A stretch of 64,000 bases of DNA. Origin: Candidatus Methanoperedens sp. BLZ2 (GTDB taxonomy: Archaea; Halobacteriota; Methanosarcinia; Methanosarcinales; Methanoperedenaceae). Below are positions 14,083 through 61,508 of this stretch, one piece after another (the first letter of the stretch is position 1; each line of letters begins with the position of its first letter). The translations under genes and the position numbers were made by a program. Location: contig NZ_NTMG01000083.1 in NCBI RefSeq assembly GCF_002487355.1, positions 1 through 64,000 on the forward strand. The letters are read 5' to 3'. Below the pieces are notes generated by a model, which did no database searches, was not told the origin of the DNA, and saw only the letters and a program-made list of their open reading frames with translations.

Positions 14083-14151
14083 GTACTGTTGTAGTTGTTA
14101 AAAATCAGAAAATAATATCGAAACAATTTGATAAAACAAGGAGAAAAAATT

Positions 14152-14853
14152 ATGGGACTTATAGACAGGATGAGCACAGTCATCAAAGCAAAAGTGAATA
14201 AGATTCTAAATAAATTCGAAGATCCGAGAGAGACTCTCGATTACTCTTATGAGAAGCAGCTTGAACTCTTACAAAATGTCAAGCGCGGCGTAGCTGAGGT
14301 AACAACTGCCAAGAAGCGGCTTGAATTGCAAAAGATGAAACTCGAGCAGAATATAACAAAATTAGACGAACAGGCGCGAGGTGCCCTGAAAGCTGGACGG
14401 GAAGACCTCGCAAGGATTGCGCTTGAGCGAAAGAGCACATCACAGACTGAAATAGAGAGCCTTACGAAGCAGATAGCAGATATTTATAAAGAGCAGGAAA
14501 AACTCATGGCAACGGAAAAGCGCCTGTCAGTTAAGGTAGAGTCCTTCCGCTCAACAAAGGAAACCATCAAAGCCCAGTACAGCGCGGCTGAAGCGCAGGT
14601 CAAGATTACAGAATCTGTTAGCGGTATCAGCGAAGAGATGAGCGATGTGGGGCTTGCAGTCCAGCGCGCACAGGATAAAACAGAGGATATGAAGGCGCGT
14701 GCATCTGCGCTTGATGAACTTGTAGATTCAGGCACTCTTGAAGATGTGACCGGGGGAACGAAGGATGACATTGAACGGGAACTTTCTAAGATAAAGTCAA
14801 AGGGTGAAGTGGATGAGCAGCTTGAATCGTTGAAGAAGGAGATGGGAAAATGA
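14152..14853 (+). CDS. pspA: PspA/IM30 family membrane-stress protein
   Basis: The ATG at 14152 follows AAGGAGAA. The 233-aa protein has the PspA/Vipp1 start (amphipathic MGLIDRMSTVIKAKVNKIL, EDPRETLDYSYEKQLE) and then long alpha-helical coiled coils with the usual hairpin. PspA forms ESCRT-III-like rods that coat and repair stressed membranes. It is followed by pspAA and htpX. Its promoter carries the shared element, so it is probably induced with the other genes that have it. Confidence 0.9.
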   Translation: MGLIDRMSTVIKAKVNKILNKFEDPRETLDYSYEKQLELLQNVKRGVAEVTTAKKRLELQKMKLEQNITKLDEQARGALKAGREDLARIALERKSTSQTEIESLTKQIADIYKEQEKLMATEKRLSVKVESFRSTKETIKAQYSAAEAQVKITESVSGISEEMSDVGLAVQRAQDKTEDMKARASALDELVDSGTLEDVTGGTKDDIERELSKIKSKGEVDEQLESLKKEMGK

Positions 14854-15140
14854 TAGTGCGGTTAATGGGAGAAGGACAGTACGAGCTTGATGAAAAACAT
14901 GTGGATGAGCTCAATAAAATCGACAACAACATAGTGAGAATTATTAGCAGAGGAGACGAAAAAGCTATCAGAATAATCTTCAAGTCAGAATTCAAGAAGC
15001 TCAATGACCATGTACGAAAAAATGGGAAAAAGATCCCGGATGATATCATAAAACCTAGCGACTTAATCATACCGCCTGCTGACATTTCGCTTAAGGAGGT
15101 AAGAAAGATTTTCAAAGGAGATGGACTGATAAAAGATTGA
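14850..15140 (+). CDS. PspA-associated protein PspAA
   Basis: The 96-aa product begins MIVRLMGEGQYELDEKHVDELNKID, typical of the PspAA domain, which occurs next to pspA in archaea and actinobacteria. Its ATG overlaps the pspA stop by four bases. The function of PspAA is unknown; strict coupling suggests that it binds or regulates PspA. Confidence 0.82.
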   Translation: MIVRLMGEGQYELDEKHVDELNKIDNNIVRIISRGDEKAIRIIFKSEFKKLNDHVRKNGKKIPDDIIKPSDLIIPPADISLKEVRKIFKGDGLIKD

Positions 15141-15194
15141 GTACAATGAAGCCAGTTTTCAATGAAGTGATTGGTGCTAAAACAGGTGATTAAG

Positions 15195-16088
15195 ATGAAA
15201 AAGTGGTACCGTGATTATGGACTTCAGGCACGCATGGTCCTAACTATGCTCTTGCTTGCTGGGCTGTATCTTATCTTCCTTGTTGTTCTATCAGAGTACG
15301 GAGGGATAGGGACATACGGTTTGATGGTGTTTGCAGGTTTTTTCCTGCTCATTCAGTTTTTCTTTTCAGATAAGTTTGCCCTCTGGAGCATGGGCGGGCG
15401 TATTGTCAGCGAGCAGGAGGAACCGCGTCTTCATGAAACAGTATCAAGACTCTGCGCAATAGCCGATCTACCTAAGCCGAAAATCGCTATTGTGGATAGC
15501 AATATCCCTAACGCCTTTGCAACAGGAAGGAGCAAAGACAGCGCAGTTGTAGCAGTTACGACTTCTTTGAAACAGAAATTAAGCCAGCCAGAGCTTGAAG
15601 CAGTGTTGGCCCATGAGTTGAGCCACGTCAAGAATCGTGATATGCTGGTTATCACAATTGCAAGCTTCCTGTCCACCGTTGCCTTTTTCCTTGTGAGGAA
15701 TATGCTGTTTTTCGGCATGGGTGGCGGAAATCGTGACCGCGACAGGGGCGCAGGCGCCGCGATAATCGTTTTTGTGATATCGCTGGCGGTATGGATCATA
15801 AGTTTCCTGCTCATACGTGCTCTTTCAAGATACCGCGAGTTTGCGGCTGACAGAGGCTCTGCGGTAATCACAGGTCAGCCAAAACATCTTGCCTCGGCTC
15901 TCATGACCATAAGCGGTGTCATGGAACGTGTACCGTCTCGCGACTTAAGAGAAGTGGAGGGTATGAATGCATTTTTTATCATTCCCGCGATCTCAGGGGA
16001 TTTGATAATGAATCTCTTCTCCACGCATCCAACGGTAGGGGCACGCATACGCGCACTTGAGGATATGGAGCGCAAGATGGAGTTCTAA
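15195..16088 (+). CDS. htpX: HtpX-like membrane zinc metalloprotease (M48)
   Basis: The ATG at 15195 follows AGGTGA; a TTG frame 24 bases upstream is less likely. The 297-aa protein has two N-terminal helices, the HELSH zinc motif (His140, Glu141, His144), a second pair of helices near 160-205 and the third ligand region YREFAADRGSA. HtpX removes misfolded membrane proteins. It is in one operon with pspA and pspAA, a logical set for envelope damage. Confidence 0.9.
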   Translation: MKKWYRDYGLQARMVLTMLLLAGLYLIFLVVLSEYGGIGTYGLMVFAGFFLLIQFFFSDKFALWSMGGRIVSEQEEPRLHETVSRLCAIADLPKPKIAIVDSNIPNAFATGRSKDSAVVAVTTSLKQKLSQPELEAVLAHELSHVKNRDMLVITIASFLSTVAFFLVRNMLFFGMGGGNRDRDRGAGAAIIVFVISLAVWIISFLLIRALSRYREFAADRGSAVITGQPKHLASALMTISGVMERVPSRDLREVEGMNAFFIIPAISGDLIMNLFSTHPTVGARIRALEDMERKMEF

Positions 16089-57360: not shown

Positions 57361-57891
57361 ATGACAGACCTTCGAACACGAGTTGAAGATGATAGGGGAC
57401 TATTAAAAAAGATCGAGCTTTTCATACCCGGTTTTAAAGGATACCGCAAGCGTGAGGATTTGCGGGCCGCAGACAGCCTGCTAAGGCAACAGCTTGCCAG
57501 GCGAATGGGTGAGATAAATAAAAAATTCGAGAATTGCAGGGAAGAGCTGACAAGAGCCCTGGAACTTGCGCTCATTTCGGATATGGGCGATGTATTGAAA
57601 TTATCAAGGCAGATAGAAAATAAGATAAGGCATACAGAGCAGGGATATTCAGGGGTATCAGCAGATATCCGGATAAAAGAAGAAGAGCTTAATAAAATGT
57701 ATGAATGGGATCTCTCGCTTCTTCAAACAATAGAATCCATCGGGAAAACAGCAGACGAACTCAATAGTTCCATAATAATCTCTGACGGCACAGCAGGGCA
57801 GAAAATGAAAGATATAAAAAAGGCATTGAAGGATTTTAATTTAATATTCGATAAGAGGATTTCTATAATTACAGGACTGGAGGTAAGTTAG
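57361..57891 (+). CDS. Coiled-coil protein leading the SPFH operon
   Basis: The 176-aa protein begins MTDLRTRVEDDRGLLKKIEL with FIPGFKGYRKREDLRAADSLL, then long amphipathic helices. It has no signal peptide or membrane helix. Similar short proteins with an 'IPGFxGY' start occur beside SPFH genes in other genomes, as far as I recall. It may bind the SPFH oligomer or membrane. AGGGTGAAAAA precedes the ATG, and the stop abuts the SPFH gene. Confidence 0.65.
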   Translation: MTDLRTRVEDDRGLLKKIELFIPGFKGYRKREDLRAADSLLRQQLARRMGEINKKFENCREELTRALELALISDMGDVLKLSRQIENKIRHTEQGYSGVSADIRIKEEELNKMYEWDLSLLQTIESIGKTADELNSSIIISDGTAGQKMKDIKKALKDFNLIFDKRISIITGLEVS

Positions 57892-59073
57892 ATGTTATTT
57901 GATAAAAAAACCCCCACAACAGCTGGTTCAGGTGGAAGTATACTTGGATCGACCACTTTCATGTGGGATGATGCTGCAAAAGGCGAAAATGTAATATTCA
58001 GGATACCAAGGAACCTTATCTGGAATGATAATGTGGTTGTCAGGGAAGATGAGTATGCGGTTTTCCTCAGGGATGGGAAAATACTGACAGTACTTGATCG
58101 CCCGGGCAGGTTCGGGCTCTCAACACTTAATATTCCTGTACTTACAGAACTCCAGAGAATAGTAACTGGTACCCAGCCTGTAGCTGAAGCATATTACGTC
58201 CAGCGCAGGGAACTGAGAAGTAAATTCGGAAGTGCCGAGCCAATGGTATTCAGAGACCAGGATTTCGGAATTGTCAGGCTTAGGATTTTCGGGCAGTTCG
58301 CTTATAAAGTTGTTAACCCCATACAGTTCATTACCCAGTTTGTGGGGACAAAAGGATTCAGCGACAGCGACCAGGTAGTGAGCTGGCTAAAAGGCGAAAT
58401 TATCATGCAGCTCAATGATACTCTCGGTGAGCTCAAATCTAAAAAACAATTATCAGTCTTAGATATACCTGCAAATCTTGAAGAGATCGAACAGATGCTG
58501 CTTTCAAAGGTTGAGACAAACGTAGCTGAGTACGGGCTAAAGGTCATGCGTATAGCAGAACTTAACATTAATCTCCCCGAAGAAGTTCAAAAAGCCGTTG
58601 ATACGCGCTCTGGCATAGGCGCACTGGGCTTAACAGACCAGAGACAGAAGGAAGCATTTATTGCTTTCCAGGCTGGAAGTGCCATGCGGGATGCTGCAAA
58701 ACAGGAAGGTGGGGCAGCAGGCGCCGGGGCAGGGGCTGGAGTCGGCCTGGGGGCCGGCATGGGAATGGGAATGATGATGGCTTCCCAGATGGGACAAACT
58801 ATGCAGCCGCAACAGCAACAGCAAGCACGTCCAAATGGAATAAAATGCCCCTCATGCGGCGCTGACTTACCTTCCGGTTCTAAATTCTGCACTAATTGCG
58901 GAAATAAGATCGGAGGGGGCATATCATGCCCGAAATGCAAAGCAGATATCCCGGCTGGTTCAAAATTCTGCCCTGGCTGCGGATATAAGATTATCTCAAA
59001 TTGCCCGAAATGCAATGCTGAACTTGCACCAGGGGTTAAGTTCTGTCCATCATGCGGCACAAAGATAGAATAG
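57892..59073 (+). CDS. SPFH-domain protein with C-terminal zinc ribbons (YdjI-like)
   Basis: The 393-aa protein has the SPFH/virion-core domain (about 30-270: WNDNVVVREDEYAVFLRDGK, FGIVRLRIFGQFAYKVV, VMRIAELNINLPEEV), a Gly/Ala/Met-rich linker and Gln run (QPQQQQQ), and three zinc-ribbon pairs (CPSCGADL, CTNCG; CPKCKADI, CPGCG; CPKCNAEL, CPSCG). B. subtilis YdjI has the same plan and is recruited to membranes by YdjG/YdjH, where it helps to localise PspA. It is followed by three genes for zinc-ribbon membrane proteins. Confidence 0.85.
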   Translation: MLFDKKTPTTAGSGGSILGSTTFMWDDAAKGENVIFRIPRNLIWNDNVVVREDEYAVFLRDGKILTVLDRPGRFGLSTLNIPVLTELQRIVTGTQPVAEAYYVQRRELRSKFGSAEPMVFRDQDFGIVRLRIFGQFAYKVVNPIQFITQFVGTKGFSDSDQVVSWLKGEIIMQLNDTLGELKSKKQLSVLDIPANLEEIEQMLLSKVETNVAEYGLKVMRIAELNINLPEEVQKAVDTRSGIGALGLTDQRQKEAFIAFQAGSAMRDAAKQEGGAAGAGAGAGVGLGAGMGMGMMMASQMGQTMQPQQQQQARPNGIKCPSCGADLPSGSKFCTNCGNKIGGGISCPKCKADIPAGSKFCPGCGYKIISNCPKCNAELAPGVKFCPSCGTKIE

Positions 59074-59083
59074 GAAGGCAATA

Positions 59084-59833
59084 ATGGAAATAAAATGTCC
59101 TCAATGCGGTGCAGATGTCAAAGCCATAGAAGGCCAGACATTTTTAACTTGTGAATATTGTTCATCTGCCATTTACATTGATAAAAGCAAAATTGTATTC
59201 CATTATATGCTAAAATCCACTATTGATGAGGTTGCAGCCGCAGCATCACTTCGGCGCTGGATGGCGGGAAGTTCTACTGTGAAAGGTCTGGATAAGGAAG
59301 CAGCGATATCAGGGAAGGAATTTGTATATTTCCCGATATGGTATTTCAAGATAAAACAGGGGGAAAAGGAGGCCATAAAGATACAACCCGCATTACCTGC
59401 CCCATTGCCCGGAATAAGAACAATGGTTATCCCTGCCGGAGATTTCCGGTTCTATGGACAGGAAGATGCAGGTAACCCGGCCATAAAAGATCCCACTGTG
59501 TTGTACTCGTCAGCAGTGGAATGGCTGAAAAAAGAAGCCGTAGATGTGTCCAATATCACCCAGAGCGCTCTTGTCCATATACCGCTTTATATTTTTCATT
59601 ATAACTACAAAAACAATGCATATACAGCCATAGTGGATGGCTCGTCAGGCAAGATCATGGCTTCGGAATACCCATCCAAACAGGAGATGCCTTATTTTCT
59701 CGTTGGAGGTGGAGCCGCAATAATATTTTTCCTTGAAGGTATGTCAATGGATTTCCCGCAAGTACTGGGAGCATACATAATAACTGCAATAATTGTTGTT
59801 ATCGCAGCAGTATTCGTTGCTGAGAGGGTATGA
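59084..59833 (+). CDS. Zinc-ribbon protein with C-terminal membrane helices (YdjG-like)
   Basis: The 249-aa protein has a TFIIB-type ribbon (CPQCGADV...CEYCSSAI), a middle domain (KGLDKEAAISGKEFVYFPIW, VHIPLYIFHYNYKNNAYTAI, VDGSSGKI) and two helices near 205-245. The middle pattern 'P-hydrophobic-W/Y ... VDG..G.' is repeated in the next two products. It may anchor the SPFH protein to the membrane, by analogy with YdjG. Confidence 0.72.
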   Translation: MEIKCPQCGADVKAIEGQTFLTCEYCSSAIYIDKSKIVFHYMLKSTIDEVAAAASLRRWMAGSSTVKGLDKEAAISGKEFVYFPIWYFKIKQGEKEAIKIQPALPAPLPGIRTMVIPAGDFRFYGQEDAGNPAIKDPTVLYSSAVEWLKKEAVDVSNITQSALVHIPLYIFHYNYKNNAYTAIVDGSSGKIMASEYPSKQEMPYFLVGGGAAIIFFLEGMSMDFPQVLGAYIITAIIVVIAAVFVAERV

Positions 59834-60888
59834 AAATGGATTCAGGCAAGCATGAAATAATAAAGGGGCTAATGTGTCCTGGCTGTGGGGGGACAGTTGA
59901 GCTCAAGGAAGGAAATAACGTCCTTAAATGTACGTATTGTGAGATACCTCTTCTTGTAATGGGAGATGAGGGCGTCATACAATATTATGTAAAAAGCAAG
60001 GTCAATGAAACTGATACAAAAGCCGTGGCAAAAAACTGGTTCGGTAAATTCGACAAGGATAGGAAACTGAAAACTGGAGCTGAGTTCACTGAGATATTCC
60101 TTGTCCATCTGCCATTCTGGAGATCCATCGGCCAGGTATGCGGCTGGATTTTCGGGAATAAGATACATCATGAGACACACCGGGACAATAAAGGTAATAT
60201 GCACACTACTACACGAAAAGAACCGGTTGAACGCATGATCATGAAAGAATATATCTGGAATAAAGCGGCCTGCGATGTTTCTGAATTTGGCGTTGAAGAA
60301 ATAGACAATTCAGGGATTTCCGGGAACCTTGAACCCTTTGATATCTCAACAGTTGAAAAACAGGGAATGGTGTTTGAACCAATGCATTCAAGAACAGACG
60401 CCGTTTTAGAGTCAGAAAACTGGATGTTAGGCCAGGCAAAAAGAAGTGTGGATATAGATGAAGTTACTTTCCAGAAACTTCATTCTATAGGGAAAAAGTT
60501 ATCTGTTATTTATTATCCTCTCTGGATTGTCAGGTATAAATTCAAAGACAGGAATTACCAGCTTGTAATTGACGGTCTTCACAACAAGCTTCTGTATGGG
60601 CGTGCACCCGGCAGCACCATTTACAGGGTTAGTATGTTCATCGCAAGCCTGATGATAGGGAATCTCATACTTACGACATCGCTTCGGCTATTTTCTGAGG
60701 GATCAAACGAATTAATAATTGCGGGTGCAATAGCAGGTATTGCATTGATAATCTTTGGTTTCAGTAAATTCAGGTATGGTGGTGAGGTAATTGAAGGAAA
60801 GACAACAGGATTGAAAGCAAAGGGTCTTCAGGAGACCTTCAATTCATTAAAAGAAATTGGTTTTGATAAATACACCGGGATGAGATAA
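59830..60888 (+). CDS. Zinc-ribbon membrane protein, paralogue 2
   Basis: The 352-aa protein has a ribbon (CPGCGGTV...CTYCEIPL), a longer middle domain (FLVHLPFWRSIGQVCGWIFG, IYYPLWIVRYKFKDRNYQLV-type segment, IDGLHNKLLYG) and two helices near 270-320. It overlaps the upstream gene by four and the next by one base. The His-rich loop NKIHHETHRDNKGNMHTTT might bind metal. Function is unknown. Confidence 0.72.
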   Translation: MKMDSGKHEIIKGLMCPGCGGTVELKEGNNVLKCTYCEIPLLVMGDEGVIQYYVKSKVNETDTKAVAKNWFGKFDKDRKLKTGAEFTEIFLVHLPFWRSIGQVCGWIFGNKIHHETHRDNKGNMHTTTRKEPVERMIMKEYIWNKAACDVSEFGVEEIDNSGISGNLEPFDISTVEKQGMVFEPMHSRTDAVLESENWMLGQAKRSVDIDEVTFQKLHSIGKKLSVIYYPLWIVRYKFKDRNYQLVIDGLHNKLLYGRAPGSTIYRVSMFIASLMIGNLILTTSLRLFSEGSNELIIAGAIAGIALIIFGFSKFRYGGEVIEGKTTGLKAKGLQETFNSLKEIGFDKYTGMR

Positions 60889-61508
60889 TGACTGAGCATT
60901 CAGGATTAAGACTTATACCTTTAAAATGCAAAAAATGCGGATATCTTCTAAATGCAGATACCAGAGACGTAGTATATTATTGCGGCAATTGCGATTCAGG
61001 TTTTGAACTTATCAATGAAAAAGACGAAATTGTTCCTGTGAATATTGATTTTGCAATTCCGAATAAAAATATGGATACTGAGAAAATATATTTGCCTTTC
61101 TGGGTTTTTGACGCAGATATCAAAATCAATTCAAGAGATGCAGCAGGAAGCATCACAGGTTTTATCATGAATATTTTTGGCAAAGAAGATAAACATGGTG
61201 GAAAATTCTATGTTCCTGCATTTGAGACATCATTGGAAAATATCCGCAAACTTGGGCTTGAATTCACAAAGAGCCAGCCTGAGTTCAATATGATAAAAAA
61301 GGGCAAGCTGAACGGATGTTCTTGTTCAAGTAAAGATGCTGAAAAGATCGCTGATTTCATTTTCCTGAGTATTGAAGCAGGGAAATCCGATATGTTAAAA
61401 AATATTACATATTCGCTTGGACTTTCATCTCCGAAAGTAATCGCGGTGCCTTTTTACAAATTAAGTGGTTCAGGCATGATAGATGGTATAATTGGTATAA
61501 GTATATAA
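60888..61508 (+). CDS. Zinc-ribbon protein, paralogue 3 (no membrane helix)
   Basis: The 206-aa protein has a ribbon (CKKCGYLL...CGNCDSGF) and a shortened middle domain (KIYLPFWVFDADIKINSRDA) but lacks clear membrane helices. It has GCSCSSKDAEK in its second half. It ends the operon, 100 bases before the cysteate synthase gene. Function is unknown. Confidence 0.68.
   Translation: MTEHSGLRLIPLKCKKCGYLLNADTRDVVYYCGNCDSGFELINEKDEIVPVNIDFAIPNKNMDTEKIYLPFWVFDADIKINSRDAAGSITGFIMNIFGKEDKHGGKFYVPAFETSLENIRKLGLEFTKSQPEFNMIKKGKLNGCSCSSKDAEKIADFIFLSIEAGKSDMLKNITYSLGLSSPKVIAVPFYKLSGSGMIDGIIGISI

Follow-up and report, generated by a model that had tools for sequence, protein, structure and literature searches.

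In Bacillus subtilis, the SPFH protein YdjI is encoded in the operon pspA-ydjG-ydjH-ydjI (PMC8581546, PMC9239133, PMC11237479). YdjI has no membrane anchor, and its membrane localisation requires both YdjG and YdjH, the loss of either one leaving it delocalised (PMC8581546). In archaea, the published Meth_adaptin loci, whose defining components are Vps4, ESCRT-III and adaptin-appendage proteins, encode an SPFH, coiled-coil and zinc-ribbon protein together with zinc-ribbon/transmembrane proteins (PMC11188069).

We analysed a 64,000-nucleotide stretch of the Candidatus Methanoperedens sp. BLZ2 genome (contig NZ_NTMG01000083.1, positions 1 to 64,000; hereafter the window), in which a sequence-only reading had proposed a five-gene SPFH/zinc-ribbon operon resembling the Bacillus YdjGHI system. 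The open reading frame listing places all five genes on the plus strand exactly at 57361-61508, and pspA, pspAA and a protease gene lie about 41-43 kb upstream:

Gene 1, 57361..57891, plus strand: 176 aa, soluble, helical protein placed in the LIMLP_15305 family, predicted four-helix bundle
Gene 2, 57892..59073, plus strand: 393 aa, SPFH domain (Band_7_1), Gly/Gln-rich linker and three zinc ribbons, no transmembrane segment
Gene 3, 59084..59833, plus strand: 249 aa, zinc ribbon, alpha/beta domain and C-terminal transmembrane hairpin, YdjG-like
Gene 4, 59830..60888, plus strand: 352 aa, zinc ribbon, larger alpha/beta domain and two transmembrane segments, YdjG-like
Gene 5, 60888..61508, plus strand: 206 aa, soluble zinc-ribbon protein, conserved alongside genes 3 and 4
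pspA, 14128..14853, plus strand: PF04012, E = 9e-24, not adjacent to the operon
pspAA, 14850..15140, plus strand: PF22743, E = 2.1e-32, beside pspA
HtpX-type M48 membrane protease, 15171..16088, plus strand: PF01435, E = 6.4e-37, downstream of pspAA

The tight packing proposed for the five genes was borne out (spacing from gene 1 to gene 5 of 0, +10, -4 and -1 nt), and hydropathy confined transmembrane segments to genes 3 and 4, two genes as anticipated. Measured against two relatives, one close and one more distant, dN/dS was 0.04-0.25 for every one of the five genes, all of which are under purifying selection. Pfam searches with genes 1, 3, 4 and 5 gave zero families above cut-off, an Rfam search for RNA elements found none, and a scan for bacterial-type promoters and terminators gave a result at chance level. 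A role as a defence system and a viral origin were both rejected: PADLOC returned no match of note, and there were zero relatives among viral contigs or phages. No description of the archaeal operon was found in the open-access literature searched.

For the comparison with Bacillus, a YdjI sequence was used as bait, for retrieval only, and yielded 80 named Bacillota pspA-ydjG-ydjH-ydjI loci, from which profiles of 77-80 sequences per gene were made. The SPFH domain of gene 2 was matched by Band_7_1 (PF13421) at E = 1.9e-41, scoring 142.4 bits against a curated cut-off of 24, and its zinc ribbons by DZR at E = 5e-24. Its six CxxC half-sites, as counted in the sequence-only reading, make up three ribbons (residues 319/333, 346/360 and 371/385). 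HHalign related gene 2 to YdjI with P = 99.86 over 319 columns and the YdjI profile matched it at E = 3e-24; judged by these profiles, gene 2 and YdjI are distantly related.

Genes 3, 4 and 5 each carry one N-terminal ribbon (two CxxC). The YdjG profile matched gene 3 at E = 2.5e-11, and full-profile HHalign to YdjG gave P = 99.0 for gene 3 and 98.6 for gene 4, whose alignment begins past the ribbon. To exclude matches driven by the ribbons, we cut these off the profiles. The ribbon-free comparison with YdjG gave P = 97.5 for both gene 3 (E = 7e-12) and gene 4 (E = 9e-12), whereas all decoys, 21 reversed or column-shuffled profiles per gene, stayed at P ≤ 1.7. Genes 3 and 4 also align with each other ribbon-free at P = 99.2, and we regard them as paralogues with detectable homology to YdjG beyond the ribbons. 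Two C-terminal helices are predicted at residues 201-248 in the AlphaFold2 model of gene 3; the transmembrane segments of gene 4 lie at 267-285 and 294-312. Gene 5 was free of transmembrane segments in 21 of 21 members. It aligns with gene 4 at P = 97 with the ribbon and 70 without, and its match to YdjG is limited to the ribbon, the ribbon-free comparison falling below significance. Gene 5 thus appears confidently related through the ribbon only, and of the three zinc-ribbon paralogues proposed earlier, genes 3 and 4 are firm while gene 5 shows little that is significant beyond the ribbon. For the gene 3 model, the best-ranked PDB structure was the C-terminal domain of YpeB, in agreement with the link between YpeB and the YdjG-like domain in PMC11237479; at E = 0.32 and TM 0.13 we do not count it as evidence.

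The remaining Bacillus component, YdjH, is a TPM-domain protein by domain search. No archaeal locus gave a match to the YdjH profile, and 21 of the 24 carrier genomes lacked TPM (PF04536). The archaeal and Bacillus operons are therefore alike in being tight operons that combine an SPFH protein with a C-terminal zinc ribbon and no transmembrane segment with a YdjG-type membrane protein (genes 3 and 4). They differ in that the archaeal operon lacks PspA and the TPM protein, and has instead two YdjG-like proteins, a soluble ribbon protein and the helical gene 1 product. The ribbon counts also differ, with two in YdjG against one each in genes 3-5, and one in YdjI against three in gene 2. Since YdjH has no counterpart, the proposed YdjGH analogy is half right: the profile comparison found relatives of YdjG and YdjI, and left YdjH and gene 1 unmatched.

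Gene 1 matched the NCBIfam model NF047596 (LIMLP_15305, from Leptospira) at E = 1.2e-15 over 158 of its 176 residues, with a score of 57.8 bits, far below the curated equivalog cut-off of 210. We read it as a distant relative of that family and not as an equivalog. The model was matched by all 24 of 24 gene 1 family members, whose alignment shows the conserved pattern PGFxGY...AD..LR within the motif IPGFRGYRxREDLRAADsLLRxQLA. A single-sequence AlphaFold2 model predicts a four-helix bundle (pLDDT 73.5, pTM 0.70), for which a fold search of the PDB gave no match below E = 0.001. Kinship of gene 1 with PspA or ESCRT-III was rejected: the profile comparison gave P = 0.5%, and the best CHMP3 fold match of this single-sequence model ranked 46th at E = 1.4. 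Profile comparison found no counterpart of gene 1 in the Bacillus operon, no relatives turned up in 249 Bacillota genomes in a search run without a positive control, and none were found on plasmids or phages. Divergent relatives occur in two genomes of family f14, on the minus strand at L200:1483-2022 (E = 2e-11) and L201:1465-1989 (E = 6e-11). Both adjoin a gene that by eye is cheW-like, which suggests that the gene 1 family may include a chemotaxis-linked branch.

The association of pspA with pspAA and htpX, noted earlier at 42 kb from the operon, proved correct by the three Pfam matches listed above, and a second pspA is present on another contig of the host genome (L002, G000:C30:53583-54272). 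These two PspA proteins, the accompanying pspAA and HtpX, the homology to YdjI and YdjG and the Bacillus precedent all favour an archaeal Psp system, in which genes 2-5 would recruit the PspA encoded 42 kb away to the membrane in the manner of YdjGHI. The survey of 43 genomes argues against it. PspA was above cut-off in 10 of the 21 carriers with at least 90% completeness, leaving 11 without, versus 14 of 19 non-carriers; because this comparison set was picked by kinship and not at random, the figures indicate lack of dependence and are not a rate. Nine complete genomes hold the full five genes with zero PspA match (G127, G156, G208, G218, G261, G294, G302, G307 and G346), and pspA was found within the fetched flanks of no archaeal operon. 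Of the two points by which the sequence-only reading was to be judged, homology to YdjG beyond the ribbons was found and co-occurrence with pspA fails. With PspA absent from nine complete carriers and TPM from most carriers, dependence of the operon on either protein is excluded. We therefore consider an archaeal Psp system unlikely, although a secondary link to PspA in the host species is possible.

A search with gene 4 in the host's order recovered strong orthologues in eight other genomes, seven of which have all five genes in the same order; in the eighth (G096), on a short contig, gene 1 was not recovered. Across the phylum, NF047596 matched 17 of 295 genomes and the gene 1 family's own profile gave 16 strong matches. 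Outside the window, at least 18 archaeal loci, spread over several families, have all five genes together, and the set is conserved across many methane-metabolising archaea. Two arrangements were seen, 1-2-3-4-5 as in the window and 3-4-5 ... 1-2, and a few loci have no more than 1-2 or 1-2-3. In the host's family, L032 has a divergent set of four genes: gene 1, the SPFH gene and two YdjG-like genes. Wherever gene 1 was recovered it lies next to gene 2, and the swapped order leaves genes 3-4-5 as one block. The module is widespread in the phylum yet patchy, and within the host genus not every species has it. In one relative, an arrestin-fold protein (L055:6495-6986, minus strand; PF02752 E = 3.6e-8, PF00339 E = 1.3e-6) is encoded immediately downstream of an operon made up of gene 1, SPFH and YdjG-like genes. 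In three genomes of family f14 (L053, L056 and L057), a divergently oriented gene that by eye encodes an acetate-uptake-type transporter lies upstream of the operon.

Between genes 5 and 1 of the swapped arrangement lies the gene for a conserved protein of 108-116 aa with about four transmembrane segments. Ten methanogen loci encode this protein, two of them having genes 1-2 without 3-5. A conserved lipobox lipoprotein (about 120 aa) is encoded directly upstream of gene 3 in four loci:

Four-transmembrane protein, L054:7850-8185, L061:8645-8989, L063:8991-9335 and seven more loci: no Pfam family above cut-off
Lipobox lipoprotein, L054:5034-5387, L058:5577-5936, L060:5716-6096 and L063:12026-12379

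No homologue of either protein was found in the window. Their presence in the methanogen loci points to the envelope.

Beyond archaea, an SPFH gene followed by a YdjG homologue was found on annotated plasmids of Vibrio (L177), Comamonas (L178), Paracoccus (L180) and Tsukamurella (L212), with YdjG profile E-values of 8e-51, 7e-40, 9e-42 and 4e-33, respectively. No PspA was found near these proteobacterial and actinobacterial pairs. They resemble the archaeal operon in having adjacent SPFH and YdjG-like genes with PspA absent nearby, and differ from it in having a single YdjG-like gene and neither gene 1 nor gene 5. The Paracoccus pair is immediately preceded by two genes, one for toxic-anion resistance and one for a DUF2927 protein (L180:3671-8389); the toxic-anion-resistance protein is possibly another helical partner, perhaps of TelA type. 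The occurrence of the bare pair on bacterial plasmids suggests that the pair is the core. On the simplest reading, PspA and TPM are a Bacillota addition to that core, a direction of change that we infer. In the SPFH tree, YdjI falls among the bacterial plasmid proteins, and a branch with 100/99 support sets off the archaeal sequences together with one very long-branched Nocardia protein. As this well-supported branch separates the archaeal SPFH proteins from YdjI and almost every other bacterial sequence, the archaeal function may have drifted. The copies of L029 and L030, which belong to another family, branch among the host-genus sequences, suggesting horizontal transfer.

Because the five-gene operon is often conserved where PspA is missing, it probably encodes a membrane-upkeep complex that works alone. 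We put the probability that it specifies a PspA-independent SPFH scaffold, anchored in the membrane and serving envelope upkeep, at roughly 60%. The gene 2 protein probably oligomerises. Given that YdjI is anchor-free and depends on YdjG and YdjH in B. subtilis, genes 3 and 4 should tether the archaeal SPFH protein, also free of transmembrane segments, to the cell membrane, probably on its cytoplasmic side. The C-terminal segments of these YdjG-like proteins would sit in the membrane and, from architecture and linkage, their N-terminal ribbons would contact the ribbons of the SPFH tail. On the same grounds gene 5 may be a soluble adaptor bearing the same ribbon, and gene 1 the dedicated partner of the SPFH protein, filling the place that PspA has in Bacillus. 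The complex, its ribbon-ribbon contacts and its role in membrane stress are what we infer; counting against this scaffold reading, fold comparisons with the gene 1 and gene 3 models gave no significant match, the bacterial-type promoter scan was at chance level, and the SPFH tree leaves room for a drift in function. More tentatively, the four-helix gene 1 protein could take the role of PspA in a PspA-independent membrane-maintenance complex that in methanogens spans the envelope, made up of the lipoprotein, the four-transmembrane protein, the YdjG-like anchors and the SPFH scaffold.

It is improbable that the operon is part of an archaeal ESCRT-type sorting system of the Meth_adaptin kind. Those loci likewise place a zinc-ribbon SPFH protein beside zinc-ribbon/transmembrane proteins (PMC11188069), and the arrestin-fold protein adjoins the operon in one relative (L055). 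However, the five-gene operon contains none of the proteins by which Meth_adaptin loci are defined, no Vps4-like gene was noticed adjoining it, and the gene 1 model has no ESCRT-III fold match. Snf7 (PF03357) was above cut-off in none of the 24 carriers, a count of low power since the model matched one control genome only, itself below cut-off. Just as improbably, genes 3-5 would be membrane-bound transcription regulators with TFIIB-like ribbons and the SPFH protein their sequestering scaffold: YdjG does have a TFIIB-type ribbon (Zn_Ribbon_TF, E = 3.7e-10) and a regulatory role has been suggested (PMC9239133), but the ribbons of genes 3-5 gave no match to the TFIIB model, no DNA-binding fold was found aside from the ribbon, and genes 3 and 4 are membrane-anchored.

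The best reading of the membrane-anchored SPFH scaffold is that it represents an old SPFH/YdjG-like module, which in Bacillota is combined with PspA and TPM and in these archaea with a helical partner of its own. This would recast YdjG and YdjI from phage-shock accessories in Bacillus to members of an older, separate SPFH/zinc-ribbon membrane module, one that gains differing helical partners: PspA with TPM in Bacillota, gene 1 in archaea and possibly a TelA-type protein in Paracoccus. Functional data on archaeal SPFH biology are very scarce, and the module offers a defined target of five to seven genes that is testable in culturable methanogens free of PspA.
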